In this document: positions 89 through 17,749 of the stretch, piece after piece
How the letters are laid out: each line of letters opens with the position of its first letter
Numbering within the stretch: position 1 is the stretch's first letter
NCBI GenBank assembly: GCA_016934395.1
Contig: JAFGSZ010000067.1
Coordinates: forward strand, 1 to 64,000
DNA: 64,000 nt
Direction of reading: 5' to 3'
From: Bacteroidales bacterium
GTDB lineage: Bacteria > Bacteroidota > Bacteroidia > Bacteroidales > UBA10428
The notes under the pieces: generated by a model
What the model was told of the DNA's origin: nothing
What the model saw: the letters and a program-made list of their open reading frames with translations, nothing else
Database searches by the model: none
Position numbers and translations under genes: made by a program

Positions 89-236
89 CCGGAAAATTTA
101 TTTAAAAATCAGATTAAAAATTTTTAAGGCGTAAAAATAAGATTAACTTACATTTTACCGGTAACAAATTAAAGATAATATAGAGGTTTATTTTTATTTT
201 AACTCGATAATATTTCAACAACGTATATTTTAACCT

Positions 237-662: not shown

Positions 663-692
663 ACTTAGGATTTATTTATCCTTCAGTGTCGC

Positions 693-2534
693 TTACTTAC
701 CCAAAAGGATGCTTATATTGTCATAAAAATTCTTTAAAGAATACCCCATTTTGTTAAACCTTAATATCAAAACAAGAATAATCAGTGTCAGAATCAGTAA
801 TGTAAATCCAAGCAGAGGTTGCTTATTGTCTTTGGTATTTTTTTGCTTTGCCAGGGTATAAAAATAGGCCGGAGTGCCATCATTTTTAAACAAATACAAA
901 TTGCAAAAAACATTACCGAGGTAGGCCACTACAATTGCCAGTGCCAGGCTTCCGAAAATAACCATCCAAAATCCCGCAAAGAGAAACAATAAAGAAATCT
1001 GCCTTTTTTTCGCTATTAGAAAATTTATATCAAGTTCAGATTTAGCAATTATTAATTCTTTATCCCCCTTAATCTTACTAAAATTTTTTTCCAGTGTAAG
1101 CTTCGAATTTTTTAATACGGTAATTTCATCATTATACCCCGAATTAATTGAATTCTCCAATTGGCTTAAATGCGAATTAATTTCATTTAGCTGATTACTA
1201 TTTTCTTCTTCAAGTTTTAAAAGTTCAGCTTTCTCAAAATTCAGATCGTCTTCAATATATTTAATCTCGAAATCGATGGTATTACGGTTTAACATTTCCT
1301 GTGAAATTCCTACCGGGAAAAGTTTTAAAAACCTGAGGTTTTCAATCTTTTTATCAATCCTGTATGCATCAAGTTCGGTTTCCATACTAAGCTGCGTACG
1401 TCTGTGCGATTCAATTTTAATGTTAAGAATACCATCCTTAACCGACATGGTAAACCAAAAAGCAACAATAAGTATAAGTATGGGGATAATTGAAATTATA
1501 ACACTAAAAATTGCAGACGGCAAAAGAACTAAAACATATTGCAGCCCTTTGCCTATTATCTGTTTAATAAAAATAATGGTGTCTGATAAACTGGTTTCAC
1601 TAAAGTCAATGTATAATCTATAGGTTGGAATGATCAATCCGCCGAGGAAAATAATTAAGAACAAAAAAATCAGAACAAGCGAAATCAATGAGTTAATAGT
1701 AAAACTTAATCCGATTAAGCTAATACCGACGTTAGAAAACCATCCAAACAGATTAAATACGGCTTGTAATAATATTAGTATAACAAAAAGTGTAATATAA
1801 AAAAGAAGGCTGCGTACCGATTCAATTCCATTTCGAAAATTTGCTTTTACCGTAGAAAAACTTTCATGTTCCAGGTTTTTTCCACGAACCGAAGATATTT
1901 CACCAAATGCCCAGGTTAATGGCAATAAGGATAAGACTGTTCCAATAACAAATAAATAAGGGATTTCAAATACTATACCCATGTAATAAAAAAGAAACAA
2001 CAGCAGGAGGGCCAGAAATGTACCCCGGAATGCAAGCAGGTAGTAATTTTTGTTCCATCCACTTTTAACATTTTTAAATGCAATTTCATATAACCACCAA
2101 ACCCAGCGGATAAAATAATGGATAAAGGAATAAAACAAAATCACCACCGCAGGCAGATAGAGTTTTAATACCCATAATACAGCATAGATAATCCAGAAAA
2201 AAATAATTTTAACCAGCCTGAAAATGTCAACAATTACATCAAAAATCAGGTAAACACCCCAGACCAACCATACCAGCACATCATATAAAAATCCAAATAA
2301 GGTAACGATGAGCCTTAATAAATCCCTGAGGCCACCCTTGTTAAAATATTCATTAGTATTATCGAAACTAAACAGGTGTGGTGGTTTTTTACCTGTAATT
2401 GTAAAGTCAATAACCGAGAAGATCAATAATAATATCGGGATACAGATATATATCTCAAGAAATGGAGCACAATAAATTCCCGCAGATACGCAAATACCGA
2501 GAGTTAATATTCTTTTGATATATTGGTGAACCAT
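693..2534 (-). CDS. large polytopic membrane protein with cytoplasmic-type coiled coil, unknown
   Basis: A 613-residue protein that I do not recognise. Roughly ten hydrophobic stretches occupy residues 8-45, 70-150, 165-210, 235-300 and 325-365. A charged, Leu/Glu/Lys/Asn-rich region at about 375-500 has strong heptad character and looks like a long coiled coil, and two further membrane segments follow at about 510-545 and 578-600. The region at 70-150 is very rich in aromatic residues (Trp, Phe, Tyr). No transporter, kinase or glycosyltransferase motif was seen. It stands alone, convergent with the gene at 237 and about 100 bp downstream of hldD on the same strand. Whether it is read with hldD is unclear. 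Confidence 0.75.
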   Translation of the reverse strand: MVHQYIKRILTLGICVSAGIYCAPFLEIYICIPILLLIFSVIDFTITGKKPPHLFSFDNTNEYFNKGGLRDLLRLIVTLFGFLYDVLVWLVWGVYLIFDVIVDIFRLVKIIFFWIIYAVLWVLKLYLPAVVILFYSFIHYFIRWVWWLYEIAFKNVKSGWNKNYYLLAFRGTFLALLLLFLFYYMGIVFEIPYLFVIGTVLSLLPLTWAFGEISSVRGKNLEHESFSTVKANFRNGIESVRSLLFYITLFVILILLQAVFNLFGWFSNVGISLIGLSFTINSLISLVLIFLFLIIFLGGLIIPTYRLYIDFSETSLSDTIIFIKQIIGKGLQYVLVLLPSAIFSVIISIIPILILIVAFWFTMSVKDGILNIKIESHRRTQLSMETELDAYRIDKKIENLRFLKLFPVGISQEMLNRNTIDFEIKYIEDDLNFEKAELLKLEEENSNQLNEINSHLSQLENSINSGYNDEITVLKNSKLTLEKNFSKIKGDKELIIAKSELDINFLIAKKRQISLLFLFAGFWMVIFGSLALAIVVAYLGNVFCNLYLFKNDGTPAYFYTLAKQKNTKDNKQPLLGFTLLILTLIILVLILRFNKMGYSLKNFYDNISILLGK

Positions 2535-2631
2535 ATTTATGGTATATACAAAAACTGTTTTATTATATACAATTATACTAAATAATTAAAGCTTTTCCTA
2601 AGCCACCCCTATATCCCGTTCTGATTTTTAG

Positions 2632-3597
2632 CTAATTATATTTATGCTCACTTAAATAATTCTTTACATAATCATCAATACCCTGTTCCAGCGGATGAAA
2701 CGGAATATCGTAGCCGGCTCTGAACAATTTATCCATGCGGGCCTGGGTAAAGTATTGATACGTGTCTCTAATATCTTCGGGAGTGTCAATAAATTCAATA
2801 TTTTCTTCAATTCCCATCGACCGGAAAACAGATTTTCCCAGGTCGAGAAAAGTACGGGCTTTACCCGTACCGAGGTTCATAATGCCCGAACGTTTTCCTT
2901 CTCTCATTAAATAATACAATACATCCACCACGTCTTTAACATATACAAAGTCCCTTTTCTGCTCACCGTCATTAAATTCCGGATTGTGCGAACGGAATAA
3001 TTTTAATTTACCGGTTTCAACAATCTGGTTAAAGGCATGAAAAACCACTGATGCCATCCTGTTTTTATGATATTCGTTGGGTCCGTAAACATTAAAAAAT
3101 TTCATTCCTGCCCAATAGGGCGGCTGATCTTCCTGAACAAGCGCCCATTTATCAAAATCATTTTTTGATTCACCGTAAGGATTCAGGGGTTTTAGATTTT
3201 CTATAACCTCATGATTGTCGCTATAACCAAATTCTCCGGCACCGTAGGTGGCGGCTGATGATGCATAAATCATTGAAATGCATTTGGATGCACAAATTCT
3301 CCAAACCTCTTTGGAATAATTCAGGTTTAATTCATCAAAGATCAATTTATCAAATTCCGAGGTGTCGGTTCTGGCGCCTATATGAAATACAAACTCTATA
3401 TCTTCTGAGGTCTCTTCAAACCAGGATAAAAATTTATCCCGCTCTATTTTTGAGCTAAATTTTTTCCCTTTAAGATTATTTTCTTTAGCCTGCTTTGTAA
3501 AATCATCCACCAGGATGAGTTCATTAAGGCCTTCATTATTTAATTTTTTAACCAAATTACTGCCAATAAAACCAGCAGCTCCAGTAACTACAATCAT
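2632..3597 (-). CDS. hldD: ADP-L-glycero-D-manno-heptose-6-epimerase
   Basis: Epimerises ADP-D-glycero-manno-heptose to the L-glycero form, the last step in making the activated heptose used in the LPS inner core; cytoplasmic. The 321-residue protein is an extended short-chain dehydrogenase. It has the NAD(P)-binding GAAGFIGSN at residues 6-14, YASSAATYG at 111-119, and the catalytic Tyr141-x3-Lys145 in NPYGESK. The later FFNVYGPNE, KRDFVYVKD and MNLGTGKARTF motifs match HldD more closely than GalE. Length agrees with the family (about 310). A GT9 heptosyltransferase-like gene at 23771 fits heptose use in this organism. The next gene on the strand is the unknown membrane protein. Confidence 0.93.
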   Translation of the reverse strand: MIVVTGAAGFIGSNLVKKLNNEGLNELILVDDFTKQAKENNLKGKKFSSKIERDKFLSWFEETSEDIEFVFHIGARTDTSEFDKLIFDELNLNYSKEVWRICASKCISMIYASSAATYGAGEFGYSDNHEVIENLKPLNPYGESKNDFDKWALVQEDQPPYWAGMKFFNVYGPNEYHKNRMASVVFHAFNQIVETGKLKLFRSHNPEFNDGEQKRDFVYVKDVVDVLYYLMREGKRSGIMNLGTGKARTFLDLGKSVFRSMGIEENIEFIDTPEDIRDTYQYFTQARMDKLFRAGYDIPFHPLEQGIDDYVKNYLSEHKYN

Positions 3598-3711
3598 GTT
3601 TAATAGTTTATAAATTAATTCTACTACAAAGAAAAAAATATTTTGGCTAAAATATCACTTACTATATAAATTCCGGCTCTATTCATTTAAATTGATATCT
3701 GAATTATTTTA

Positions 3712-4401
3712 TTAATCAATACTCAATTCCTTAAAAATATACATTACCGATTCTGTAAGACTATCAATTGCCAAAGGGATATTCCAGTTTTCTATTTTTT
3801 TTATTTCAACAAAATACGAAATAGCTCTCAACTGAAGAAAGGGTACTTTCTCCTGCAAACAAACATACATAAACGCGGCTCCTTCAGTTGTTTCAATTTC
3901 AGCGTTAAATTTTTCCTTTACTCTTGAAATACTTGCCGGAGCGCTTAACAGCGTATTTACGGTAATTCCTTTTACCGGTATTAATGCCTCCACTTCTTCA
4001 ATTTCAAAGTTTCCCAAACTTTTAATTACCCCATCGTTAAAAGGATACTCATCACGGTCCATCAACTCCATTTCGTACATTGTAAAAAACCCTTCCTTGT
4101 CTTCAAATCCGAGATCAGAAAACTGATCCTGGATAACATTTACAACAAAACCCTGTTCAAGGAAATGATCAAAACTACCTGCCATTCCAATGTTCAAAAC
4201 AAGATCATAACTCGATTTATCCAATGCTTTGGTTAGATAATAAGCAGTAAATACACTACCCATTCCTGTGATGAGAATATCGATCTGCAGGTTACTAAAA
4301 TGATACGTTTCCATATTCATATCTGTTCGTTGAACAAATTGGAATTGTTCTTTTAGTCCCTTAACGATCCTGTTTGTTGCACTTACTAATAATATCTTCA
4401 A
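3712..4401 (-). CDS. mqnB: futalosine hydrolase
   Basis: Cleaves futalosine to dehypoxanthinyl futalosine and hypoxanthine in the futalosine route to menaquinone; cytoplasmic. The 229-residue protein belongs to the nucleoside phosphorylase/MTA-SAH nucleosidase superfamily: ILITGMGSV (42-50), LNIGMAGSF (69-77), and a TEGAAF motif (Glu173) corresponding to the family's MEGAA purine/ribose-binding motif. The downstream RAISYFVE...NWNIPLAI stretch is characteristic of MqnB and separates it from Pfs/MTAN. It is divergent from folE, with about 220 bp between the two starts. No other menaquinone gene is in the window. The family is clear; the exact substrate follows from homology. Confidence 0.88.
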   Translation of the reverse strand: MKILLVSATNRIVKGLKEQFQFVQRTDMNMETYHFSNLQIDILITGMGSVFTAYYLTKALDKSSYDLVLNIGMAGSFDHFLEQGFVVNVIQDQFSDLGFEDKEGFFTMYEMELMDRDEYPFNDGVIKSLGNFEIEEVEALIPVKGITVNTLLSAPASISRVKEKFNAEIETTEGAAFMYVCLQEKVPFLQLRAISYFVEIKKIENWNIPLAIDSLTESVMYIFKELSID

Positions 4402-4624
4402 AATTCCACACTTTAATTGATTTTCTAGCTTGGGAAAAGTTTTTATCTTTACCTCCCAAATCAGTCTAAAGATAATTAATTTTTTTTCACAAGAATATGA
4501 ATTTTTTTTAAGGGATCATGTGAAAACTTTCGGCTGACAGACATTTCTATAAAATATATAATTTGCGCCTCTTATAATTCATAGTCTGCCTATTATTTAA
4601 TTGCCACATTAAAACAGCTATCTT

Positions 4625-5260
4625 ATGGACAATAATTCGGATTTACAGGATTTATATAAAGAAGGGTATGAGTTCCCGGAAAATTTTGATCCCGAAAAAA
4701 CAAACCGGTTAGCCTCACTTTATAAAGATATTATTGGAAATCTCGGAGAAGACACCTCAAGAGAAGGCTTGTTAAAAACACCGGAAAGAGTAGCCAAATC
4801 GATGCAATTTTTAACCCATGGCTATGGTGTTGATCCGACAAAAATGATCCAGTCGGCGAGATTTAAAGAAGATTACCAGCAGATGGTACTGGTTAAAGAT
4901 ATCGAATTGTATTCCTTATGTGAACATCATATGATTCCTTTTTTTGGGAAAGCACATGTGGCCTATATTCCCAACGGACATATTACCGGCCTCAGCAAAA
5001 TTGCCCGTGTGGTAGATGCATTTTCCCGACGGCTGCAGGTTCAGGAACGACTTACTATTCAGATAAGGGATTGTATTCAGCAAGCCTTAGACCCACTCGG
5101 TGTAGCTGTAGTAATTGAAGCCAGACACTTATGTATGATAATGCGGGGTATTCAAAAACAAAATTCAGTAACTACCACTTCCGCATTCACCGGATGTTTC
5201 TTAAAAGAACACCGTACACGCGAAGAATTTATCCATCTTATCGGAGTTTCTTTAATATAA
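4625..5260 (+). CDS. folE: GTP cyclohydrolase I
   Basis: Converts GTP to 7,8-dihydroneopterin triphosphate, the first step of folate synthesis and, in queuosine-making bacteria, of the preQ0 route; cytoplasmic homodecamer. The 211-residue length is typical. Zinc and active-site residues are visible: LCEHH at 98-102 (Cys99, His102) and RHLCMIMRG with Cys170. [23 protein letters not shown] is the conserved helix after the zinc site. The start ATG at 4625 follows about 220 bp of non-coding DNA shared with the divergent mqnB. A tRNA-guanine transglycosylase gene (33235) elsewhere in the window fits a queuosine role, although folate alone would explain it. Confidence 0.97.
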
Positions 5261-5296
5261 AGATACCCATCGTATTTCTGCTTAAATTGTTTTTAT

Positions 5297-5304
5297 TACT
5301 TTTG
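5297..5304 (+). promoter_or_regulatory. Bacteroidota -7 promoter element of fabD
   Basis: TACTTTTG matches the TAnnTTTG -7 consensus of the Bacteroidota primary sigma factor. It lies 24 bp before the fabD ATG, leaving room for a short leader. A clear TTG -33 element at the ideal spacing is absent (CTG at 5278-5280 is nearest). It implies that fabD is transcribed on its own as well as, or instead of, with folE. Confidence 0.45.
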
Positions 5305-5328
5305 CCAAAATTTTTTAAAATAAATTTT

Positions 5329-6207
5329 ATGAAGGCATATGTATTTCCCGGACAGGGGGCACAATTTGTAGGTATGGGCAGTGACCTGTACAATACGTCG
5401 GATGTTGCGAAAGAATTTTTTGAAAAAGCCAATAATATCCTGGGGTTTAAAATTACCGACCTGATGTTTTCAGGTACTGAAGAAGATTTAAAACAAACTA
5501 AAGTTACTCAACCAGCCATATTTTTGCATTCTGTAATACTTGCAAAAACCCTGGGTGAGGATTTTCATCCCGAAATGGCAGCCGGACATTCATTAGGTGA
5601 GTTTTCTGCCCTGGTTGCCGCAGAGGCTATTTCTTTCGAGGATGGATTGCTGCTGGTTTCAAAAAGAGCCCTGGCCATGCAAAAAGCATGTGAGCTAAAT
5701 CCTTCTGCCATGGCTGCTATTCTGGGCCTGGATGATGAAATTGTGGAAAATATTTGTAAGGAAATTCCGGAAATTGTGGTTCCGGCAAATTATAACAGCC
5801 CCGGACAAATTGTAATTTCCGGATCGGTTGAAGGAATTGACAGGGCCATTGAAAAACTGAACGCTGCCGGTGCAAAACGTGCAATAAAACTGAATGTGGG
5901 TGGAGCTTTTCATTCGCCCTTAATGGAACCTGCAAGAATAGAATTGGAAAAGGCTATTGATAGCACAATTTTTAGTCACCCCGTTTGCCCGGTATTCCAG
6001 AATGTGGATGCTCTACCCTATACAGATCCCCAAAAAATAAAGGAGAACCTGAAATTACAGTTAACAGCCCCGGTGCGCTGGACCCAGACCGTAAAAAATA
6101 TGCTTGCCGATGGGGCAACATCCTTTGCTGAAGTCGGGCCGGGAACAGTTTTACAGGGTCTGATAAAAAAGGTAGACAGACAGGTTCTGACTGAAAGTGC
6201 GGTATAA
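5329..6207 (+). CDS. fabD: malonyl-CoA:ACP transacylase
   Basis: Moves malonyl from CoA to acyl carrier protein for type II fatty acid synthesis; cytoplasmic. The 292-residue protein starts MKAYVFPGQGAQ, the conserved N-terminus of the family. Nucleophile Ser88 sits in GHSLGEFSAL, and His195 in GGAFHSPLM is the second catalytic residue. The frame is open upstream to 5131, but that part overlaps folE out of frame and has no family similarity, so ATG 5329 is chosen; a -7 promoter element sits just before it. The gene ends 21 bp before a strong intrinsic terminator. Confidence 0.96.
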   Translation: MKAYVFPGQGAQFVGMGSDLYNTSDVAKEFFEKANNILGFKITDLMFSGTEEDLKQTKVTQPAIFLHSVILAKTLGEDFHPEMAAGHSLGEFSALVAAEAISFEDGLLLVSKRALAMQKACELNPSAMAAILGLDDEIVENICKEIPEIVVPANYNSPGQIVISGSVEGIDRAIEKLNAAGAKRAIKLNVGGAFHSPLMEPARIELEKAIDSTIFSHPVCPVFQNVDALPYTDPQKIKENLKLQLTAPVRWTQTVKNMLADGATSFAEVGPGTVLQGLIKKVDRQVLTESAV

Positions 6208-6227
6208 ATCACGTCAGTAAAATAAAC

Positions 6228-6249
6228 AGGGGCCTGAGCCCCTTTTTTT
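6228..6249 (+). terminator. intrinsic terminator after fabD
   Basis: A perfect 6-bp stem (AGGGGC / GCCCCT) with the tetraloop CTGA is followed at once by an unbroken T run (6243-6249). It separates fabD from the threonine operon beginning at 6299. Confidence 0.85.
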
Positions 6250-6298
6250 ATAGCAATTTCTTACCTATTTTTAAGGTCGTTTTTAAGCATAAAATCCG

Positions 6299-8728
6299 AT
6301 GAAAATATTAAAATTTGGCGGCTCTTCAGTAAAATCACCGGAAAAAATCCGGGATGTTAAAAATATTATCGAAAACCAAACAGAAAAACTTGTTGTTGTA
6401 GTATCTGCATTTCAGGGAATAACAAACAATCTTGTGGAATTAAGCAGACTGGCTTCTGAAAAAGATAATGCTTATAAAGAAACATTAGAACACATAAAAA
6501 AAATTCATATAGACTTTACTCGGGAGCTTATTGAAAAATCGAAGCTTCAGCAGGTACTTCAGCAGGTAACCGCTCTGCTCAGCGAACTTGAAAATATCAG
6601 CGCAGGAGTATTTTTGTTAAACGACCTTACTCCTAAAATTATGGACCGTATCCTGAGTTTTGGTGAGCGGCTGTCTGCATATATCATCAGCAATGTAATT
6701 ACAAACGGTGAATATGCAGACAGCAGGGATTTTATTAAAACTGATAATTCTTTTGGAAATGCAAAAGTATATACAGAACAATCTTATCCATTGATTGCAG
6801 GTTTTTTTAAAGGAAAAGACAACACCTTTGTGGTTCCTGGTTTCATAAGCAGCACAGTTCATAACGAAACAACAACCTTAGGGCGTGGTGGCTCGGATTA
6901 TACAGCAGCGCTTTTTGCTGCCGCTCTTCATGCAAAATTGCTTGAAATCTGGACTGATGTTGATGGATTTATGACTGCCGATCCGAGAAAAGTTTCCAAA
7001 GCTTTTGCCATTGAATCCCTCAGTTATCCTGAAGCTATGGAATTATCGCATTTTGGCGCCAAAGTAATTTATACTCCCACTATTCAGCCTGTTTATAAAT
7101 TAAATATTCCTATTGTAATTAAAAATACCTATAATCCAGATGCTGCCGGAACTTATATTACCAGGGAAGCCAAATCTGTTGGGAAATCACTCATAAAAGG
7201 AATTTCATCTATTGATGATATTAACCTGATTACCCTGCAGGGACCCGGTATGGTGGGAGTAAAAGGTATCTCTATGCGTATGTTTGGTGCACTGGCAAAC
7301 AGTAATATCAACATTATACTGATAACCCAGGCATCATCAGAATATTCTATAAGCCTGGCAATAAATCCTGAGGATATAGAAAAAGCAATTACTGCTCTCG
7401 AAAATGAATTTGAACCGGAAATTAAATTACGAAACGAGGTTGTAATCCAGGTTGAAAAAGAACTTTCTATTATTGCCATTGTGGGTGAACAAATGAAAAA
7501 CACACCCGGCATTTCAGCTACATTGTTCCGGTCACTGGGCCGGAATGGCATTAGTGTTATTGCCACTGCCCAGGGTTCTTCGGAGCTGAACATTTCAGTG
7601 GTAATTAAAAAGGAAAGCCTGCGGAAAGCCATGAATGTTATTCACGAGGGATTTTTCCTGTCGCATTATAAAGAATTGCATATTTATCTTGTGGGAATTG
7701 GTACCGTAGGAGGTATTTTATTACAACAGATTTACCAGCAGCAGGAAAAACTCATGAAGGAACATCAGTTAAAAGTTAATGTAGTTGGAATTAGCAATTC
7801 AAGAAAAATGCTGATTAATCCGGATGGTATAAACATCTTCAACTTCAGAGAGCAGCTGGATAACTCAGGTACAGAAGCCAACCTGAGTAAATTTATAGCA
7901 ACCATAAAAAAACTGAACCTCCGCAATAGCGTTTTTATCGATTGCACTGCCAGCCAACAAACTGCTGCTGCTTATAAACAGGTTCTCGAATCTTTTATTT
8001 CAATTGTTGCGGCCAATAAAATTGCCTGTTCATCCGATTATTCAGTTTATAAAGAACTGAAATCCGCTGCGCTGAGTAAGAATGTTAAGTTTATGTACGA
8101 AACTAATGTAGGGGCCGGCCTTCCCATTATCAGTACAATAAACGATCTGATCAGAAGCGGCGATAAAATTTTGAAGCTGGAAGCCGTACTTTCCGGAACA
8201 TTAAATTTTATATTTAATGAATTAGGCAGCACTGTATCCATGAGCAAAGCAATTCGTCTGGCCAAAGAGAAGGGGTTCTCAGAGCCCGATCCAAGAATTG
8301 ACCTGAGCGGTACCGACGTGGTAAGAAAACTCTTGATACTGGCCAGGGAATCAGGGTACCCGCTCGAATATAACGATATAAAAGTGGAACCCTTCTTACC
8401 CTCAGAATGTTTTGAAGGTAATCTTGTAGATTTCTGGAAAAAAGTGGAAAAATACGACCAGCAATTTGAGACAAACCGGCAAAACCTGGAGAAAGAAGGT
8501 AAAAAATGGCGTTTTGTTGCCCTTCTTGATGAAGGAAAAGCACGTGTTTCACTGCAGGAAGTTGATAAATCACATCCTGCATTCCCGCTCGAAGGGAGTA
8601 ATAATATTCTGTTAATAACCACTGAACGATATCGTGATCAACCCATGATCATCAGAGGATACGGAGCGGGCGCTGAAGTAACCGCAGCCGGGGTTTTTGC
8701 AGATACAATACGGGTAGCCAATGTATAA
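6299..8728 (+). CDS. thrA: bifunctional aspartokinase I / homoserine dehydrogenase
   Basis: Catalyses the first and third steps of threonine/methionine synthesis: phosphorylation of aspartate and NAD(P)H reduction of aspartate semialdehyde to homoserine. The 809-residue length matches the ThrA fusion. Residues 1-290 are the aspartokinase domain, with KFGGSSV at 5-11 and GRGGSDYTA. Two ACT regulatory domains follow at about 300-450. The homoserine dehydrogenase domain begins near 460 with YLVGIGTVGG (Rossmann), continues with the NVGAGLPII substrate-site motif, and has SGTDVVRKLLILARE near the end. It is the first gene of a five-gene operon and its last 8 bp overlap the following HAD gene, implying translational coupling. 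Threonine feedback is expected from the ACT domains but cannot be read from sequence. Confidence 0.97.
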   Translation: MKILKFGGSSVKSPEKIRDVKNIIENQTEKLVVVVSAFQGITNNLVELSRLASEKDNAYKETLEHIKKIHIDFTRELIEKSKLQQVLQQVTALLSELENISAGVFLLNDLTPKIMDRILSFGERLSAYIISNVITNGEYADSRDFIKTDNSFGNAKVYTEQSYPLIAGFFKGKDNTFVVPGFISSTVHNETTTLGRGGSDYTAALFAAALHAKLLEIWTDVDGFMTADPRKVSKAFAIESLSYPEAMELSHFGAKVIYTPTIQPVYKLNIPIVIKNTYNPDAAGTYITREAKSVGKSLIKGISSIDDINLITLQGPGMVGVKGISMRMFGALANSNINIILITQASSEYSISLAINPEDIEKAITALENEFEPEIKLRNEVVIQVEKELSIIAIVGEQMKNTPGISATLFRSLGRNGISVIATAQGSSELNISVVIKKESLRKAMNVIHEGFFLSHYKELHIYLVGIGTVGGILLQQIYQQQEKLMKEHQLKVNVVGISNSRKMLINPDGINIFNFREQLDNSGTEANLSKFIATIKKLNLRNSVFIDCTASQQTAAAYKQVLESFISIVAANKIACSSDYSVYKELKSAALSKNVKFMYETNVGAGLPIISTINDLIRSGDKILKLEAVLSGTLNFIFNELGSTVSMSKAIRLAKEKGFSEPDPRIDLSGTDVVRKLLILARESGYPLEYNDIKVEPFLPSECFEGNLVDFWKKVEKYDQQFETNRQNLEKEGKKWRFVALLDEGKARVSLQEVDKSHPAFPLEGSNNILLITTERYRDQPMIIRGYGAGAEVTAAGVFADTIRVANV

Positions 8729-9398
8729 AAATGATAAGATAGAAGCCGTAATTTTTGATCTTGATGGTGTACTGATCGATTCGGAACCCCTATGGAAAAT
8801 TGCTGAAAAAAAAGTTTTCCAGACAGTGGGCGTTCACCTTACAGAAGAGATGTGCAGGCAAACTACCGGCCTAAATACTTTGGATACCATAAAATACTGG
8901 TTTAAAAGATATCCCTGGCAGGGAACATCCCTGGAAGAAGTAGAAAAATTATTAATTGAAGAAGTAAAACGTCTGATAAAAAGCAGCGGTAAACTAATTC
9001 CCGGGGTATTGCAAGTACTAAAACTTCTTAAACAAAAGGGAATAAAAATGGCCATTGCTTCCGGATCACCTGCATCGTTAATACAACTTGTTATTGATGT
9101 TTTTAATTTACATGAATTCTTTTTATCATATCATACCTGCGATGATGAATTGTATGCCAAACCACATCCGGCAGTGTACCTGACTCTGGCAAAACGTTTG
9201 GACGCTGATCCGATACATTGCGTAGCTGTTGAAGATTCATTCTACGGTATATTATCCGCCAAATCAGCACGTATGAAAGTAATTGCACTACTCGAAGAAG
9301 AGTTGTATAATAATTCGCGATTTGATTTTGCTGATTACAAAATCAAATCCTATGAAGAACTTTTAAAATCAGACTTTAAAATATTATTTTCGAATTAG
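8721..9398 (+). CDS. HAD-superfamily sugar-phosphate phosphatase, HxpB-like
   Basis: A 225-residue HAD hydrolase with the beta-phosphoglucomutase-type cap. Motif I is FDLDGVLIDSEPLW (nucleophile Asp13, acid Asp15), motif II is the Ser of IASGSP, motif III is the Lys of YAKPHPAVY, and motif IV lies in VAVEDSFYG. The YPW stretch in the cap and the overall spacing resemble hexitol/2-deoxyglucose-6-phosphate phosphatase (HxpB). It starts inside the last codons of thrA and ends 18 bp before thrC, occupying the slot where a homoserine kinase gene often lies. A phosphatase would not be expected to make homoserine phosphate, so its role in the operon is unexplained; it could be a house-cleaning phosphatase. 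Confidence 0.85.
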   Translation: MYKNDKIEAVIFDLDGVLIDSEPLWKIAEKKVFQTVGVHLTEEMCRQTTGLNTLDTIKYWFKRYPWQGTSLEEVEKLLIEEVKRLIKSSGKLIPGVLQVLKLLKQKGIKMAIASGSPASLIQLVIDVFNLHEFFLSYHTCDDELYAKPHPAVYLTLAKRLDADPIHCVAVEDSFYGILSAKSARMKVIALLEEELYNNSRFDFADYKIKSYEELLKSDFKILFSN

Positions 9399-9416
9399 AA
9401 TTTTAATTAAACCGGT

Positions 9417-10787
9417 ATGGAGGAAAAGTTGCTCTATTATTCAACAAATCTTAAAACAAAAAAACTGGGTTTTCGTGATGCTCTGCTCACAGGGCTGGCT
9501 CCCGACAGGGGATTATTTATGCCTGAACGGATTCCAAAACTATCTGCCGGGGAATTAAGCGATATGGCAACCATGCAATACTATGAAATTGCCCATGTGG
9601 TTGGCAATAAATTTTTAGCCGACGAAATTCCATCTTCTGATTTGTTGAAGCTTGTAAAAGATGCTTATAATTTTTCCATACCTCTCGAGAGAGTCTATGA
9701 CAGGAAATATATTATGCGTCTTGATCAGGGCCCTACCGCATCGTTTAAAGATTTTGCAGCACGTATGATGGGCAGGTTAATGCAATATTTTCTCTCGGTT
9801 CAAAATAAAAAACTGGTAATACTCACAGCAACTTCAGGAGATACAGGAAGCGCCATTGCCAACGCGTTTTACGGTCTGGATAATATTAAGGTAATAATTC
9901 TCTATCCGGAAAAAGAAGTAACTGAGCGGCAACGAAAACAAATGACTACCCTTGATAAAAACATTTCAATTATCGCCATAAACGGTAAGTTCGACGATTG
10001 CCAGGCTATGGTAAAACGTGCATTTGCTGATCCTGAACTCTCGTATCAGGAACTTTCATCAGCGAATTCAATAAATATTGGCCGGTTGATTCCTCAATCG
10101 ATGTATTATATCTGGGCATATACTCAACTTGCCGATATAAATAAAAATGAAAATATCATTTTTTCAGTTCCCTCCGGTAATTTTGGTGATCTTATGGGCG
10201 GCTTGATAGCAAAAAATATGGGAGTGCCGGTAAAACGTTTTGTAATTTCAACCAATAGGAACGATGAAGTGCCCGTGTACTGGCAAACCGGAAAATATAA
10301 AACTATAGTGCCTTCGGTAAATTGTATATCAAGCGCCATGAACGTGGGCCACCCGAGCAACATGTCAAGAATAGTGGCATTATACGGAGGTATAATGGAT
10401 GAAATCGGTAAAATACATAAAGAACCTGACCTGGAAAAAATGCGACAACACATGTATGCTGTAAGCTTAAGCGATGAAACAACCCGCGAAACCATCAAAA
10501 GTGCCTGGGCAAATTATAAATTGTTGCTGGAGCCACATGGCGCTGTGGGATGGTCCGGATTGCATAAAAATTTTACCATTCATCCCCAGGATGGAACCGC
10601 AGACCAGCTAAGTGTGTGTCTGGAAACTGCGCATCCGGCAAAATTTCCGGAAGAAATTAATGCTGTCCTTGGTTTTGATCCCGACCTTCCTGAAAGTTTG
10701 AAAGGTCTGGATGATAAAACCGAAAACTTTGAAAAGCTTGACAATAATTATGATATATTTAAAACTTTTTTAAAGGATAAATTCTAA
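9417..10787 (+). CDS. thrC: threonine synthase
   Basis: PLP enzyme converting O-phospho-L-homoserine to L-threonine and phosphate; cytoplasmic. The 456-residue protein belongs to the long class with an N-terminal domain: MEEKLLYYSTN, then LAPDRGLFMPERIP at about 26-39. PLP lysine lies in TASFKDFAARMM, and LTATSGDTGSAIA is the phosphate-binding loop region. The SANSINIGRLIPQ stretch and GNFGDLMGG are typical of the family. The substrate must be supplied as homoserine phosphate, for which the only candidate nearby is ThrH, 10 bp downstream. Third gene of the operon. Confidence 0.97.
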   Translation: MEEKLLYYSTNLKTKKLGFRDALLTGLAPDRGLFMPERIPKLSAGELSDMATMQYYEIAHVVGNKFLADEIPSSDLLKLVKDAYNFSIPLERVYDRKYIMRLDQGPTASFKDFAARMMGRLMQYFLSVQNKKLVILTATSGDTGSAIANAFYGLDNIKVIILYPEKEVTERQRKQMTTLDKNISIIAINGKFDDCQAMVKRAFADPELSYQELSSANSINIGRLIPQSMYYIWAYTQLADINKNENIIFSVPSGNFGDLMGGLIAKNMGVPVKRFVISTNRNDEVPVYWQTGKYKTIVPSVNCISSAMNVGHPSNMSRIVALYGGIMDEIGKIHKEPDLEKMRQHMYAVSLSDETTRETIKSAWANYKLLLEPHGAVGWSGLHKNFTIHPQDGTADQLSVCLETAHPAKFPEEINAVLGFDPDLPESLKGLDDKTENFEKLDNNYDIFKTFLKDKF

Positions 10788-10797
10788 ATAAAAATTT

Positions 10798-11403
10798 ATG
10801 CATATTGTATGTTCCGATCTTGAAGGAGTATGGGTTCCTGAAGTATGGATTAATGTCGCCAAAAAAACAGGCATAGAAAAGCTTAAATTAACCACGCGCG
10901 ATATTAAAGATTACGATGAGTTAATGATATACAGGCTAAAAATACTCAAGGAACATAATTTAAAAATAAAAGATATTCAAAATGTTATTGAAACCATCGA
11001 ACCTTTAGAAGGCGCTTTGGATATGTTACGCTGGCTTAAAGAAGTAACGCGCCTTATTGTGGTGTCTGATACTTTTGTTGAGTTTGCCGAACCGTTGATG
11101 AGGAAACTGGAACGCCCTACCCTGTTCTGCCATAATCTGAATATTGATGATGAAGGAAACATTTATGGTTATACATTACGTCAGAAAGATCCGAAGAAAA
11201 AAGTTATTCAGTCCTTAAAAAGCCTGAACTATCACGTTATCGCTTTTGGTGATTCCTATAACGATGTATCCATGCTAAAGGAAGCAGACAGCGCCATCCT
11301 GTTTCGGCCCCCGCAAAATGTAATTGATGATTTTCCGGAGTTCCCGGTTGTAAAGGAATATGCAGAATTAAAAAAAATGCTGCAGCAAATTATGAATCAT
11401 TAA
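10798..11403 (+). CDS. thrH: ThrH: phosphoserine phosphatase / phosphoserine:homoserine phosphotransferase
   Basis: A 201-residue HAD-family protein that matches Pseudomonas ThrH along its whole length. Visible features are the nucleophile motif CSDLEGVWVPE (Asp7), the TTRDIKDYDELM substrate region, motif II in VVSDTF, the LRQKDPKKKV segment with the motif III Lys, and GDSYNDVSMLKEA (motif IV). In Pseudomonas ThrH hydrolyses phosphoserine and can also transfer its phosphate to homoserine, giving homoserine phosphate. It sits 10 bp after thrC and 25 bp before a D-2-hydroxyacid dehydrogenase. Since no GHMP homoserine kinase is in the operon, it plausibly supplies the ThrC substrate; that role is inferred from context. 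Confidence 0.93.
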   Translation: MHIVCSDLEGVWVPEVWINVAKKTGIEKLKLTTRDIKDYDELMIYRLKILKEHNLKIKDIQNVIETIEPLEGALDMLRWLKEVTRLIVVSDTFVEFAEPLMRKLERPTLFCHNLNIDDEGNIYGYTLRQKDPKKKVIQSLKSLNYHVIAFGDSYNDVSMLKEADSAILFRPPQNVIDDFPEFPVVKEYAELKKMLQQIMNH

Positions 11404-11428
11404 GTTCGTTTTTATTAAATAATTTTTT

Positions 11429-12388
11429 ATGAAAATTGTTGTCCTTGACGGATATACCCTTAATCCCGGCGACTTATCCTGGGACGAACTAAAACGGCTT
11501 GGAGACTGTGACTGTACAATATACGACCGCACACCTCCTGAAGATACCTATACAAGATCAAAACATGCTGAGATAATTCTTACCAACAAAACCCTGTTAA
11601 CAAAGGATATACTGATTCGTTTGCCCGATCTGAAATACATTAGAGTGCTGGCCACCGGCTACAATGTGGTTGATCTTAAAGCTGCCACTGAAAATAAAAT
11701 TATAGTAACCAATATTCCCGCATATAGTACCGATTCCGTGGCACAAATGGTTTTTGCACATATCCTGAACCTGACTCAAAGAGTGGCAGCTCATGCCAGT
11801 TCAGTAAATGAGGGTAAATGGAGTAAGAGTATCGATTTTTGTTATTGGGATTTTCCACAAATAGAACTAACCGGTAAAACCCTGGGGCTGATAGGCTTTG
11901 GTAAAATTGCCCGTACCACGGCAAATATTGCACAGGCTTTTGGCATGAAAATACTTGTTTATACCAGATCTGTACCTGCAAAAAAACCTGAGAATATCTT
12001 GTTTACGGATATAAAAACCATTTTTCAACAAAGTGACATTGTGAGTTTACATTGTCCGCTAACACCAGAAACAGAAAACCTGGTAAATTATGACAAATTA
12101 AAACTGATGAAAAAATCTGCGTTTCTGATAAACACCGGTCGCGGCCCCTTGGTGAATGAAACAGCCCTTGCAGAAATGCTAAATTCAGGAAAAATTGCCG
12201 GTGCCGGACTGGATGTGCTTTCTGCTGAACCTCCTTCAAAAAACAATCCTCTTATAGGTGCGGCAAACTGTTTTATAACGCCGCATATTGCATGGGCTAC
12301 ATATTCAGCCAGATCAAGGTTATTGCACATTGCCCTGGAAAACATAAAAGCTTTTCTGAAGGGGAATCCTGTGCATGTTGTAAATTAA
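11429..12388 (+). CDS. D-2-hydroxyacid dehydrogenase (glycerate/hydroxypyruvate reductase-like)
   Basis: A 319-residue NAD(P)-dependent dehydrogenase of the D-isomer 2-hydroxyacid family. The Rossmann motif is GLIGFGKIA at about 151-159. The catalytic Arg is in NTGRGPLVNE, the Glu in the AGLDVLSAEPP region, and the His in ITPHIAWAT. Length and the TPHIAW ending resemble glycerate dehydrogenase HprA; it lacks the C-terminal ACT domain of long SerA enzymes. It is the last gene of the threonine operon, 25 bp after thrH. Because ThrH uses phosphoserine, a link to 3-carbon hydroxyacid or serine metabolism is attractive, but the true substrate is unknown. Confidence 0.9.
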   Translation: MKIVVLDGYTLNPGDLSWDELKRLGDCDCTIYDRTPPEDTYTRSKHAEIILTNKTLLTKDILIRLPDLKYIRVLATGYNVVDLKAATENKIIVTNIPAYSTDSVAQMVFAHILNLTQRVAAHASSVNEGKWSKSIDFCYWDFPQIELTGKTLGLIGFGKIARTTANIAQAFGMKILVYTRSVPAKKPENILFTDIKTIFQQSDIVSLHCPLTPETENLVNYDKLKLMKKSAFLINTGRGPLVNETALAEMLNSGKIAGAGLDVLSAEPPSKNNPLIGAANCFITPHIAWATYSARSRLLHIALENIKAFLKGNPVHVVN

Positions 12389-12861
12389 AATTTTTTAGTA
12401 CAATTCAAATACCTGGCTAATTGAATTAAACAAAGATTTTACCAGGTCCCTTATAAAAAAAACCGGGACAGAAGTCCCGGATCGAAGAAATAATTGTAGC
12501 ATTATGTCAGGCCCTGTTTGATCTAATGTTACATGAAGTGGATATCAATTTCAAAATAAAATCATATTAAATTTCTTACTTTTTTTTAAATTCTGCACTA
12601 AACATTTTAATGATATTGCTCACCTTTTTACAAAAATACTTGTGGAAAGCTCCTGAAAAATTCTTCACCAAATGATTCAAAGTTGATTTATATTCCTAAT
12701 TATCTGATATTTATAAAAATCATCCGGATAAATTCTCAGAGAACATGTACAATTTTTTGGATTTGGCATTATATGAATTAATCGCCTAAAAACTGTAACT
12801 TAATAACGTTGGTTAAGTAAAAATTAGACAATATTATATGTATAAGTAAAGATTTTTGTTA
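12389..12861. other. 473-bp intergenic region between threonine operon and kinase pair
   Basis: No convincing gene was found on either strand. The left third holds the GC-rich hairpin at 12463-12480. The rest is very AT-rich and probably contains the promoter of the receiver/kinase gene that follows; I could not fix a clear TAnnTTTG element. Confidence 0.5.
12463..12480 (-). terminator. hairpin with U-tract only in minus-strand orientation
   Basis: A perfect 7-bp stem (CCGGGAC / GTCCCGG) with loop AGAA lies 75 bp after the end of the threonine operon. The A run immediately upstream on the plus strand (12453-12462) would be a U tract only for a transcript coming from the right. On the plus strand no T run follows, so as a terminator for the operon it would be weak or factor-dependent. 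Confidence 0.4.
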
Positions 12862-14385
12862 GTGAAGATAGAGACCAAAATTCTAATTGTAGATGATATC
12901 AGCAGTAATATTGAATATCTGGAGGCATTATTGGAAGATCTCGATATTACAATTCTTACAGCATTATCCGGATACGAAGGAATTGAAATTGTAAAACAAA
13001 ATGAACTTGCCCTGATAATTCTTGACGTTCAAATGCCAGGAATTGACGGATTTCAAACACTTGAGAAAATTCGCCAAATGCCAGGAAATGAAAATCTCCC
13101 GGCTATTTTTGTTTCAGGTATTTATTCAGAAGACCGTTTTAAAATTAAAGGACTTGAAAGCGGAGCTGTGGATTTTATTTCTAAACCCGTTAATGGAGAT
13201 ATTCTGATAGGAAAGGTAAAAGTTTTTATTAAACTTTTCTATCAGAAAAAGGGACTTGATAACCTGGTTAGTGAACTCAAAAATACAAACCTTAAACTTA
13301 GGGAAAGCGAAGACAGGTTTAAGAAAATATCAACTGCTGCTGCAGATGCCATAATTGTTCTCGACAATAATGGCGTTATAATTTATTGGAATAATGCTGC
13401 TGAGAAAATTTTTGGATATACAGAAAATGAGGCTGCAGCCATTAATTTCAGATTACTTTTTTCAGAACAACAGGACCACGCAGACGGACCATTTGATTTA
13501 AAGCATTTTTTCGATACAAAATCCGGAACAAATGTTGGAAATACAGTTGAATTAGTAGCAGTAAATAAGCAGGGAATAAAATTCCCCGTAGAATTATCAT
13601 TTTCACCTTTCCTTGTAGAAAATAACCTGAATGCTGCATGTATAATACGGGATATTTCAAAACGGAAAAAAATTGAGCAGGAGTTGCTTAAAACAAAAGA
13701 ACTTAAAGAAGCCAACAAGGTGATGAGAGAATTTATTGACAACCTGAATCATGAAATTCGAACTCCTTTAAACGGAATACTCGGAATTTCAGGAAGCCTT
13801 GTGAAACACGAAAAAGGTAATCTCACAGATAAGCATTTTGAGGCCATTCAGCATATTTACACCAGCGCTGACCGACTTAATGTGTTAATAGAACGATTGT
13901 TTGAATTTCGGAGTTCAAGCGAAGTAAAGATTTCAGATTTTAGCTCCAATGATTTTATTGATGAAGTTTATAACCATGCACTAAAAATTCTAAATAATAA
14001 AGATGTTAAATTTGAAATCAGGAAAGAAGATACATTACCTGCAAACTTTAAAACTGATAAAGAGAAATATTTTGAAATCCTGGTAAATATTATCGAAAAT
14101 TCAATAAAATTTACGAACAAAGGCACAATACTTATCCGGTTTTTTGCCTCTGATAATTTAATTGTATGTAAAATAGCAGATACAGGAATTGGAATCAGCG
14201 AATCCGATTTAAAAAATATCTTTGATCAATTTGTTCAAATTGATGGTACTTCGTCCAGAAAATATGGGGGTACGGGTCTTGGATTAGCGCTTGCCAATAA
14301 ACTGATTAAAATGTTATATGGTAATATTATTGTAGAAAGTGAATTATCTAAAGGAACAACCGTTACGGTGAAACTGCCTGTCTAG
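12856..14385 (+). CDS. receiver-PAS-histidine kinase hybrid
   Basis: A 509-residue cytoplasmic signalling protein without membrane segments. Order: response-regulator receiver at about 8-125 (acidic pocket Asp13/Asp14, phospho-acceptor Asp57, PGIDGF, Lys in SKPVNGD); a coiled linker; PAS domain at about 150-275; then a kinase core with His299 in NLNHEIRTPLNG, N box NIIENSIKFTNKG, G1 DTGIGISE and G2 GGTGLGLALA. The receiver-first layout suggests that it is switched by a phosphate relay and by a PAS ligand rather than by a periplasmic signal. The frame can start only at TTG 12856 or GTG 12862, as a stop lies at 12847; GTG may be the real start. No DNA-binding domain is attached. The next gene is a second receiver-kinase. 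Confidence 0.92.
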   Translation: MLVKIETKILIVDDISSNIEYLEALLEDLDITILTALSGYEGIEIVKQNELALIILDVQMPGIDGFQTLEKIRQMPGNENLPAIFVSGIYSEDRFKIKGLESGAVDFISKPVNGDILIGKVKVFIKLFYQKKGLDNLVSELKNTNLKLRESEDRFKKISTAAADAIIVLDNNGVIIYWNNAAEKIFGYTENEAAAINFRLLFSEQQDHADGPFDLKHFFDTKSGTNVGNTVELVAVNKQGIKFPVELSFSPFLVENNLNAACIIRDISKRKKIEQELLKTKELKEANKVMREFIDNLNHEIRTPLNGILGISGSLVKHEKGNLTDKHFEAIQHIYTSADRLNVLIERLFEFRSSSEVKISDFSSNDFIDEVYNHALKILNNKDVKFEIRKEDTLPANFKTDKEKYFEILVNIIENSIKFTNKGTILIRFFASDNLIVCKIADTGIGISESDLKNIFDQFVQIDGTSSRKYGGTGLGLALANKLIKMLYGNIIVESELSKGTTVTVKLPV

Positions 14386-14447
14386 ATAATTTAAAATTCT
14401 TTTAAGAATCCGTTAATTAAAAACATGGCAAACCAAAAAAGAAGATC

Positions 14448-15536
14448 ATGGAAAAATTCTTAAATTCAGAGATTCTAATTGTTGATGATGAACCGGCAAA
14501 TATTTTTTTTCTTGAAAATCTTTTGTTGAACGAAGGGTATAAGGTAACCACCGCTTCAAGTGGAAGAGAATGTATCAGAGTACTTTCAAACTTTATCCCG
14601 GATGTTATTTTGCTGGACATTATGATGCCTGAGATGGATGGTCTGGATGTGCTGGATAATATTATGCACGATTCCCGCCTGAAAGAAATCCCTGTAATTA
14701 TGGTTACTGCCAAAACTGAATCGCTGGATGTAGAGCAGGCATTAGACAAAGGAGCCATGGAATACATTAAAAAACCTATTGATGAAATTGAACTTTTAGC
14801 AAGAATAAGGGCCTCATTAAGAATAAAAAAGCAGGAAGACCACCTGAAAGATCTGGTGAAATCTAAAGAAGAATTTATTAAAATTATATCTCAGGACCTG
14901 CGCACACCTTTTACTTCCATTTCAGGATATGCAGAAATGCTCTATTACGATGCAGCTCTTGCCACAACGCTTGATAAAGAGCATAAAGATTTTCTTAAAT
15001 TTATTATTGACACTTCCAATAACGTGGTCTCTTATTTTAATAAACTCTTAAACTGGACCAATATTGAGGCAAAAGAAATTAATCTGAAAATTACACCTTC
15101 TAAACTTTCAAGAATTGTAAATGCCTCCCGGATAATATTGCAAAAAGAAATTTCGGAGAAAGAACTTTCCGTAGTATCTGAAATTGATGATAATTTTACT
15201 GTGAATATCGATGAAACTTATTTCGGACAGGTTGTGCGTAATTTATTAAGTAATGCTGTAAAATATACTTCTAAAGGGGGTAAAATCAGAATTTTCATCA
15301 GAACACAGAATACCCAAACCCAGCTGGTAATTTCAGACAACGGTGTAGGCATCAGAAATATTACCCCGGAGGAAATGTTCAGTAAAAAAATAAATAAATC
15401 TACCCGTGGTACCCAGGGTGAAACAGGCACCGGAATTGGTCTGGGTATATGCAAAAAAATTATAGATGCCCATGGATTTCAAATTACTTTTAAATCAGAA
15501 ATTGCAGAAGGAACAGATGTAATAATTACTCTTTAA
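14448..15536 (+). CDS. receiver-histidine kinase-like protein lacking the H-box His
   Basis: A 362-residue soluble protein: receiver at 8-125 (Asp13/Asp14, phospho-acceptor Asp57, PEMDG, Lys in KKPIDE), dimerisation helices at about 135-205, and an ATP-binding domain at about 250-362 with N box VVRNLLSNAVKYTSKGG, G1 SDNGVGI and G2 GTGIGLGICKKI. The dimerisation helix reads IISQDLRTPFTS: Gln149 stands where the autophosphorylated His normally lies (codon CAG). The ATP site looks intact. It may therefore be a pseudokinase, an allosteric partner of the kinase 62 bp upstream, or a phosphatase/receiver sink. The gene starts at ATG 14448, 62 bp after the first kinase, and is probably co-transcribed. 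Confidence 0.9.
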   Translation: MEKFLNSEILIVDDEPANIFFLENLLLNEGYKVTTASSGRECIRVLSNFIPDVILLDIMMPEMDGLDVLDNIMHDSRLKEIPVIMVTAKTESLDVEQALDKGAMEYIKKPIDEIELLARIRASLRIKKQEDHLKDLVKSKEEFIKIISQDLRTPFTSISGYAEMLYYDAALATTLDKEHKDFLKFIIDTSNNVVSYFNKLLNWTNIEAKEINLKITPSKLSRIVNASRIILQKEISEKELSVVSEIDDNFTVNIDETYFGQVVRNLLSNAVKYTSKGGKIRIFIRTQNTQTQLVISDNGVGIRNITPEEMFSKKINKSTRGTQGETGTGIGLGICKKIIDAHGFQITFKSEIAEGTDVIITL

Positions 15537-15584
15537 AATAGATTGATTATATAAAATGTTATTGAAAGATTTTTAAAATTGTTT

Positions 15585-16049
15585 TCAATTCTGTACATCC
15601 CAGGATCCGGGATTTAACATCCAGTCTTCCATCGGAATTTCCTCCTCAACAATATTATTGGGTAAAGATTCATTATTTAACTGATTACAAAATTCTTTAA
15701 ACATCCAGCTTTCAAGTTTTAATTCTTCCTCTTTTTCTTCCTGAAGAATATAATCCAGGTATGTATAATCTGATACTCTCGACCAGGTAGATAAATCGCA
15801 CATCCAGTATTCTACTTGCAGCATATTTTCTTCTGAATTTTCTTTGTTATCCGTGCTGTAAATTACAATAACTTTCAGAGGAGCCGTATTCTGGATATCT
15901 GAAATAAGTTTTTCTATATCCATATACTTTTCTTTAACTTCAAAATCATACGAAGATTGTGCACAAATTCCCTTTATAGAAATGAAAAAAACAAATACCA
16001 GGATTATCAACCAGGCTGAAGTTTTAAATTTCTTATGTAGATTATTCAT
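15585..16049 (-). CDS. secreted protein with repeated Trp-Met motifs, unknown
   Basis: A 154-residue protein starting at MNNLHKKFKTS with a signal peptide (hydrophobic stretch about 12-28, cleavage likely after ICAQ). An in-frame ATG 24 bp upstream (16073) is possible but would put an extension before the signal. The mature part is acidic. Its C-terminal half carries three short repeats: EYWMCDLSTW, ESWMFKEF and EDWMLNPGSW, with E-x-W-M as the common core. I know of no assigned function; similar E-x-W-M repeats occur, as far as I recall, in small secreted Bacteroidota proteins. It is convergent with the kinase pair, with 48 bp between the ends, so it could belong to the same signalling patch. 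Confidence 0.75.
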   Translation of the reverse strand: MNNLHKKFKTSAWLIILVFVFFISIKGICAQSSYDFEVKEKYMDIEKLISDIQNTAPLKVIVIYSTDNKENSEENMLQVEYWMCDLSTWSRVSDYTYLDYILQEEKEEELKLESWMFKEFCNQLNNESLPNNIVEEEIPMEDWMLNPGSWDVQN

Positions 16050-16262
16050 GACGGTAGATTTATAATGCGACATGCCTTATTCACGTTCTGTGCCAAATCT
16101 TATATAAATCTGAAAATGTGTTTCTTATAATTAAAACAGTTTAATCGGAAGCGTAGCAGGATGAACGGTTTCGATACAAGGATTGCCCGAATACGAACAA
16201 TTTTTAGAATACAAAATAAAAAAAACACTGTCTGAAAACAAATTCCCGAATCCTGATCAGCG

Positions 16263-16934
16263 CTAAATCCCGGGATGAACAATAATCACAATTTCTCCTT
16301 TTATGTCTTTATTTTTGAAATACTCCGTTACTTCGGTAATACTTCCGCGAACCGTTTCTTCATGGATTTTTGTCAATTCGCGCGAAATGGAAATACTGGT
16401 TTCAGGGCTAAAATATTCCGCTAACTGCTCCAATGTTTTTATCAGGCGAAAAGGAGCTTCATATAACACAATTGTTCTTGATTCTTCCGCAAGGATTTTT
16501 AGCTTTTTTGTCCTTCCTTTCTTTTGAGGCAGAAAACCCTCAAAGCAAAAACGATCGGTTGGAAAGCCGGAATTCACCAATGCCGGTACAAAAGCAGTAG
16601 CGCCGGGCAAACACTCAACAGGCACATCATGTTCAATACACGAACGGGTAATTAAAAACCCGGGATCCGAAATACTGGGGGTACCAGCATCAGAAACCAG
16701 CGCCATGGTTTCACCGCCCTGAATACGGGAAACTATCTGATCAACAATTCTGTGTTCATTAAATTTATGATAGGATTGAAGCCTTGTTGAAATCTGGAAA
16801 TGAGTTAACAGAATTTTGGTTTTGCGGGTATCTTCAGCAAGAATAACATCTACCTCTTTTAATACTCTGAGTGATCGAAGGGTAATGTCTTCGAGATTTC
16901 CGATGGGTGTCGGGACAATATATAATTTACTCAT
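16263..16934 (-). CDS. rsmI: 16S rRNA (cytidine(1402)-2'-O)-methyltransferase
   Basis: Methylates the 2'-O of C1402 in 16S rRNA using S-adenosylmethionine. The 223-residue protein has the tetrapyrrole-methylase fold with MSKLYIVPTPIGNLEDITLR at the N-terminus, LAEDTRKTKILL, and VSDAGTPSISDPG, all diagnostic of RsmI. It is slightly shorter than E. coli RsmI (286 residues) and lacks its C-terminal extension, as is usual for Bacteroidota. Its first 8 bp overlap the end of the upstream hypothetical gene at 16927, implying coupled translation. Confidence 0.95.
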   Translation of the reverse strand: MSKLYIVPTPIGNLEDITLRSLRVLKEVDVILAEDTRKTKILLTHFQISTRLQSYHKFNEHRIVDQIVSRIQGGETMALVSDAGTPSISDPGFLITRSCIEHDVPVECLPGATAFVPALVNSGFPTDRFCFEGFLPQKKGRTKKLKILAEESRTIVLYEAPFRLIKTLEQLAEYFSPETSISISRELTKIHEETVRGSITEVTEYFKNKDIKGEIVIIVHPGI

Positions 16935-17631: not shown

Positions 17632-17749
17632 TTGAGTTTATCTTACTTTTATCATTTAAAAATCAAAACGTAAATAATTATGTCATGTTGTGGATTCTTA
17701 AAATTAAGATTAAATTTAAGCATTTTTCACCCATGATTACTGATGCCTT

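Follow-up and report, generated by a model that had tools for sequence, protein, structure and literature searches.

ThrH as the candidate homoserine phosphotransferase in a Bacteroidales threonine operon, and its mutual exclusion with thrB and TIGR02535 across the order

Singh et al. 2004 is reportedly the primary paper on ThrH of Pseudomonas. ThrH has been described as both a phosphoserine phosphatase and a phosphoserine:homoserine phosphotransferase with no ATP-kinase activity (PMC1079889). Here, we describe a thrH gene (10798-11403, + strand) that lies in a threonine operon at positions 6299-12388 of a 64,000-nucleotide stretch of DNA (the window; positions 1 to 64,000 of contig JAFGSZ010000067.1) from the Bacteroidales bacterium assembly GCA_016934395.1. 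Its product belongs to the same family as Pseudomonas aeruginosa ThrH (PDB 1rku and 1rkv; TIGR02137). The two proteins are 58% identical, and active-site residues are among those that do not vary in an 18-protein alignment. The gene settings differ. In Pseudomonas, thrH coexists with an APH-type ThrB and with SerB, and no thrC or hom match was found within the fetched flanks of thrH in Pseudomonas loci, whereas thrH here is part of a threonine operon and no other known candidate for homoserine phosphorylation was found in its genome. From sequence evidence, we consider it likely that ThrH supplies this organism with the O-phosphohomoserine from which threonine is made; with less assurance, phosphoserine is probably its donor in vivo.

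Other replacements for ThrB have been described or proposed. TIGR02535, a proposed homoserine kinase family that is related to phosphoglycerate mutase, includes BT2402 of B. thetaiotaomicron and is scored as separate from ThrH, covers this gap in other genomes of the order. The GapMind work states that BT2402 is important for growth without threonine, that it did not rescue an E. coli thrB mutant, and that the ThrB call was of low confidence for 29 of the 148 prototrophs, 15 of which have TIGR02535; that text does not mention ThrH (PMC7311316). A gut-genome survey describes thrB and thrB2 as complementary and leaves ThrH unmentioned, and we infer that its thrB2 is TIGR02535. In Geobacter metallireducens, a HAD protein (Gmet_1630 / GSU1694) that is encoded between two threonine genes was proposed as a phosphoserine:homoserine phosphotransferase; no exclusion pattern is mentioned in the passage concerned (PMC2700814). 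In Desulfovibrio, ThrB is replaced by DvMF_0971, which is related to shikimate kinase and was shown to be a homoserine kinase through rescue of E. coli thrB (PMC5764234). The ThrH reaction in Pseudomonas and a like proposal for Geobacter have therefore already been published. The three-way exclusion and slot swap described below seem to be new; neither was found in the literature searched, which omits most subscription papers.

Distribution of ThrH, TIGR02535 and thrB across the order

The genome containing the window (G000) comprises 4.53 Mb in 155 contigs, with a completeness of 98.63% and a contamination of 4.32%. The initial annotation had noted that the operon lacks a GHMP-type ThrB, and this holds for the whole genome: no match to TIGR00191 over its cut-off was found in either (best 34.9 bits versus 168.25), and the genome has no match over the cut-off to the apgM-like family TIGR02535 (best 20.6 bits versus 446.3). 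For thrB_alt (APH type, TIGR00938), there was no match in G000 at an E value of 0.001, and none of the 22 genomes searched had one over the cut-off. A second shikimate kinase of the Desulfovibrio type was considered and rejected, as a single shikimate kinase match was found in 17 of the 18 ThrH genomes of the order, including G000, and none in G153.

All counts of ThrH, TIGR02535, thrB, SerB, thrC and serC come from a single set of 198 genomes of the order. Canonical thrC was taken as a match of at least 200 bits, which defined 86 genomes. Among these, 48 have only TIGR02535, 17 only thrB and 17 only ThrH; 4 have none of the three, and no genome has two over the cut-offs (Fisher p = 1.5e-14). 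The ThrH count includes one genome added by hand, G046, in which two contig ends divide thrH; without it, 16 ThrH genomes with canonical thrC remain. A further 27 genomes with lower-scoring thrC matches over the cut-off (169-198 bits) were kept out of the main table; thrB occurs in 9 of them, nothing in 18, and ThrH or TIGR02535 in 0. Drawing a single genome from each of the 57 families, 500 times over, gave a median p of 1.5e-9 and a worst p of 7.9e-8. Over all 198 genomes, thrB or TIGR02535 was found in 0 of 18 ThrH genomes versus 84 of the 180 others (p = 2.8e-5). The 18 ThrH genomes are spread over 12 families. Because two families each hold both kinds (f39, with ThrH and thrB genomes, and f96, with ThrH and TIGR02535 genomes), more than one replacement between the enzymes is likely.

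Individual genomes at the edges of these classes are as follows. G154 (78% complete) is the sole ThrH genome without canonical thrC, and its thrH lies 53 bases from a contig end. In G042, one of the four candidate-less thrC genomes, the contig breaks off within thrC, so that a thrH could lie beyond the break. The thrB genome G016 also has a TIGR02535 match of 315.1 bits, beneath the cut-off. A phylum-wide search of 395 genomes found ThrH over the cut-off in G000 only and so added no independent sample.

The thrC-thrH pairing and the slot after thrC

In 13 of the 18 ThrH genomes, thrH immediately follows thrC; the spacing is 8-272 bp in the 12 of these where thrH is unsplit. Since the pairing recurs in this way, it is not due to chance. 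Most ThrH operons are of one of two types. The first is thrA-(HAD)-thrC-thrH; in the second, thrC-thrH stands behind an O-acetylhomoserine sulfhydrylase-like gene (G145, G094, G086, G196 and G046). For comparison, 10 of the 48 TIGR02535 genomes were picked, non-randomly, by ThrH-kind thrC score and length. The order thrA-thrC-apgM was found in G006, and the sulfhydrylase-like gene followed by thrC-apgM in G085, G157, G052, G140, G146 and G158; in G069, G160 and G027 the sulfhydrylase-like gene and thrC lie together, with apgM on a different contig. ThrH and TIGR02535, which are unrelated proteins, share the slot after thrC behind the same upstream genes. The swap is limited to one operon type: over all 48 TIGR02535 genomes, apgM lies after thrC in 7, before it in 34 and on another contig in 7. 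The initial annotation had put an apgM-like gene of some Bacteroidota in the slot between thrA and thrC. The arrangement thrA-apgM-thrC is real (L060), but in the operons most similar to the present one apgM takes the position of thrH after thrC.

The sulfhydrylase-like gene itself is divergent (L033:4861-6324; TIGR01326 279 bits, cut-off 495). It stands just before thrC in ThrH operons (also L038, L040, L047 and L058) and in TIGR02535 operons (L143-L151). Its product might form homocysteine from O-phosphohomoserine, in which case threonine and methionine synthesis would branch at the latter compound.

In the window, the packed gene order that had been proposed was confirmed by intact reading frames and by model scores. 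Five intact genes on the + strand, separated by gaps of -8, 18, 10 and 25 bp, encode the bifunctional aspartate kinase / homoserine dehydrogenase ThrA (6299-8728; NF006959 1028.5 bits, cut-off 726), an HxpB-like HAD phosphatase (8721-9398; NF008087 228.1 bits, cut-off 191; PDB 1te2 157 bits), the threonine synthase ThrC (9417-10787; TIGR00260 247.4 bits, cut-off 167.1), ThrH, the proposed phosphoserine:homoserine phosphotransferase (TIGR02137 277.4 bits, cut-off 223.4; NF010109 304.4 bits, cut-off 133; 1rku 248.5 bits), and a D-2-hydroxyacid dehydrogenase (11429-12388). The last is over the cut-offs of PF02826 and PF00389; it reaches 327.3 bits against NF005069, under the cut-off of 448, and no NCBIfam model is over its cut-off among the matches listed, so it was assigned at superfamily level only. 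Its closest PDB match is 5tx7 (333 bits). A terminator-like stem-loop with a T tail (6228-6243, + strand, by pattern match) separates thrA from the preceding gene; this pattern was found at 9 sites versus 5.4 in shuffled sequences. Both the gaps and the upstream pattern fit a single predicted transcript of the five genes starting before thrA. There was no Rfam match to a known RNA leader ahead of thrA in window positions 1-20000, and promoter-like sites were no commoner than chance (23 versus 21.8 in shuffles). Upstream, mtnN-like and folE genes (3712-6207) precede thrA. The same pair precedes thrA in G064 and G043 and thrC in G042 (L034, L152, L057), a conserved neighborhood with no evident link to threonine.

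The initial annotation had called for a survey of how widely thrA-HAD-thrC-thrH is conserved. The HAD gene precedes thrC in 5 of 24 thrC-thrH operons (13 order genomes and 11 named loci), namely in G000, G037, G153, L062 (as a fragment) and L063, some of the operons being cut by contig ends. No gene matching the dehydrogenase was found next to thrH, at the thresholds used, in 17 fetched loci of the order or in 80 named loci. Since the HAD gene occurs in few ThrH operons and the dehydrogenase only here, neither is needed in a ThrH operon, and the HAD protein is accessory.

Named genomes were also scanned for ThrH; this gave at least 586 relatives, of which the best 80 were kept. The nearest named loci among these, at 74% and 73%, are metagenome-assembled genomes of Bacteroidales, and the order sampled is on this ground taken to be Bacteroidales. 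Fifteen loci carry the title Bacteroidales, Bacteroidetes or Salinivirgaceae, and in 11 of them thrC stands just before thrH (in L134 only as a contig-end fragment). A second arrangement was found in 19 of the 80 loci, where thrH lies directly behind a homoserine dehydrogenase match with 30-294 bp between BLAST edges; these loci are titled Desulfobacter-like, Desulfosarcina, Deltaproteobacteria and, in one case, Proteobacteria, and two of the 19 hom matches were checked against models (502 and 510 bits). No hom match was found in the deltaproteobacterial or myxococcal loci L075, L089, L095, L110, L122 and L127, of which L075 is cut too close to judge. In a tree of 98 ThrH proteins, all Bacteroidota form one group (93/69; 98% of bootstrap trees), beside which some Desulfobacterales are placed with weak support. 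For 48 of the 80 (15 from Bacteroidota, 25 with proteobacterial or myxococcal titles, 3 from Spirochaetes, and 5 from Pseudomonadota as a contrast), genomes were searched for thrB and TIGR02535, with no search made for thrB_alt; thrB was over the cut-off in 0 of the 48 (best 71.3 bits).

Active site, phosphate donor and alternative readings

ThrH of the window aligns with P. aeruginosa ThrH across residues 1-194. Residues D7, E9, E15, R46, K133, D152, N155 and D156 are invariant in all 18 aligned ThrH proteins, including that of P. aeruginosa, and we take them to be the catalytic and phosphoserine-binding residues. When ThrH is aligned with the phosphoserine phosphatase 1f5s, R46 falls opposite R56 and K133 opposite K144. 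The residue two positions past the nucleophile is Glu in 18 of 18 ThrH proteins, and phosphoserine phosphatases have Asp at this position; our guess is that the Glu favors transfer over hydrolysis.

In the proposed reaction, ThrA would make homoserine, and Asp7 of ThrH would accept phosphate from a phosphomonoester, for which 3-phosphoserine produced by the serA-serC pathway is the likeliest candidate. Phospho-Asp7 would then hand the phosphate to homoserine, with release of serine, and ThrC would convert the resulting O-phosphohomoserine to threonine. ThrH may additionally hydrolyze surplus phosphoserine, as the genome has no SerB (TIGR00338) over the cut-off of 144.15 bits; the matches are ThrH itself (57.5 bits) and an 815-aa frame (28.9 bits). 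The donor pathway appears to be in place. SerC is over its cut-off (453.6 bits), and its gene on contig C143 (L059) adjoins that of a 306-aa 3-phosphoglycerate dehydrogenase-like protein, a short SerA. This protein scores 188 bits against TIGR01327, whose cut-off is 454 bits. Because of these two adjacent genes, the organism probably makes 3-phosphoserine. The dehydrogenase at the end of the threonine operon was considered as the serA of the genome and rejected in favor of the gene beside serC. Taken with the absence of known kinases, the exclusion pattern and the retained active-site residues, the serine genes largely support the route to threonine through ThrH suggested in the initial annotation.

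Several observations weigh against this reading. The exclusion pattern rests on model cut-offs and draft genomes, and the tests use no species tree. Three genomes (G018, G021 and G139; L054, L055 and L056) have an uncut canonical thrC and no thrB, TIGR02535, ThrH or thrB_alt over the cut-off, which indicates that there may be a further homoserine-phosphorylating enzyme in the order. In G123, G055, G096 and G004, thrH lies away from thrC (G154 cannot be judged), and the named Bacteroidota loci L067, L069, L078 and L079 have no thrC just before thrH. The deltaproteobacterial genome L089 has TIGR02535 over the cut-off (552.9 bits) together with a ThrH away from hom, the sole such genome seen, and L100, L103 and L115 have TIGR02535 matches of 182-235 bits, beneath the cut-off. 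Finally, serC matches are weak in two ThrH genomes of the same family, G043 (4.8e-40) and G154 (1.7e-29), in which the donor may differ.

These two genomes bear on the alternative that survives best, namely that phosphoserine is not the donor from which ThrH makes O-phosphohomoserine and that, for example, 3-phosphoglycerate, phosphoenolpyruvate or acetyl phosphate serves instead. Donors like phosphoenolpyruvate were proposed by TIGRFAM curators for TIGR02535, which occupies the same slot, according to the GapMind work (PMC7311316). We nevertheless regard another donor as unlikely: the P. aeruginosa enzyme uses phosphoserine (PMC1079889), the invariant R46 and K133 align with the phosphoserine phosphatase residues named above, and serC is strongly matched (E value 9.0e-126 or better) in 16 of the 18 ThrH genomes.

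Somewhat less probable still is that ThrH is solely a phosphoserine phosphatase that replaces SerB, with an unknown kinase phosphorylating homoserine. Such use of thrH has been suggested for Ilumatobacter (PMC3910706), and a Roseburia paper also invokes thrH for the SerB step. SerB is missing over the cut-off from G000 and from 12 of the 17 ThrH genomes that have thrC, and the three genomes with thrC and no candidate (G018, G021 and G139) do point to unknown enzymes. However, SerB is equally scarce where ThrH is absent, being found in 26 of 65 thrB or TIGR02535 genomes with thrC versus 5 of 17 with ThrH (p = 0.58). ThrH excludes thrB and TIGR02535 but not SerB, its gene sits beside thrC or hom, and in G064 and G169 SerB is present alongside thrC-thrH. 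Over the whole order, a serC match was found in 191 of 198 genomes (120 over the cut-off) and SerB over the cut-off in 40; because serC is nearly universal and SerB is not, another phosphoserine phosphatase is probably common in the order.

The initial annotation had also placed the HAD gene in the slot of a kinase, and its product would be a candidate for making O-phosphohomoserine given its 8 bp overlap with thrA and its place before thrC in five ThrH operons; this we reject as a kinase substitute and consider highly improbable, since the protein is over the cut-off for the hexitol phosphatase HxpB and was not seen in 19 of the 24 thrC-thrH operons, although contig ends truncate some of these, while the genomes of the order among those 19 still lack the known kinases.

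Implications for threonine synthesis in the order

When amino-acid synthesis is predicted from genomes, the lack of a homoserine kinase is one of the gaps met most often. The exclusion pattern and the slot swap name a specific candidate for this gap, which would correct false calls of auxotrophy for ThrH genomes. The shared position after thrC also supports TIGR02535 performing the same step as ThrH.

A broader reading, which we put forward tentatively and hold at somewhat below even odds, is that the serine and threonine branches of ThrH-only bacteria are stoichiometrically joined, and that TIGR02535 is an unrelated donor-type phosphotransferase and not an ATP kinase. If the branches are joined, each threonine, and the isoleucine derived from it, would take the phosphate of a phosphoserine and yield one serine, sparing the ATP of a kinase and using a phosphoester that SerB would waste. 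If both parts of this reading are true, most genomes of the order with canonical thrC would phosphorylate homoserine independently of ATP, as ThrH or TIGR02535 is present in 65 of these 86. With phosphoserine as the donor, a single phosphate would serve two amino-acid pathways, a saving from which anaerobes with little energy to spend might benefit.

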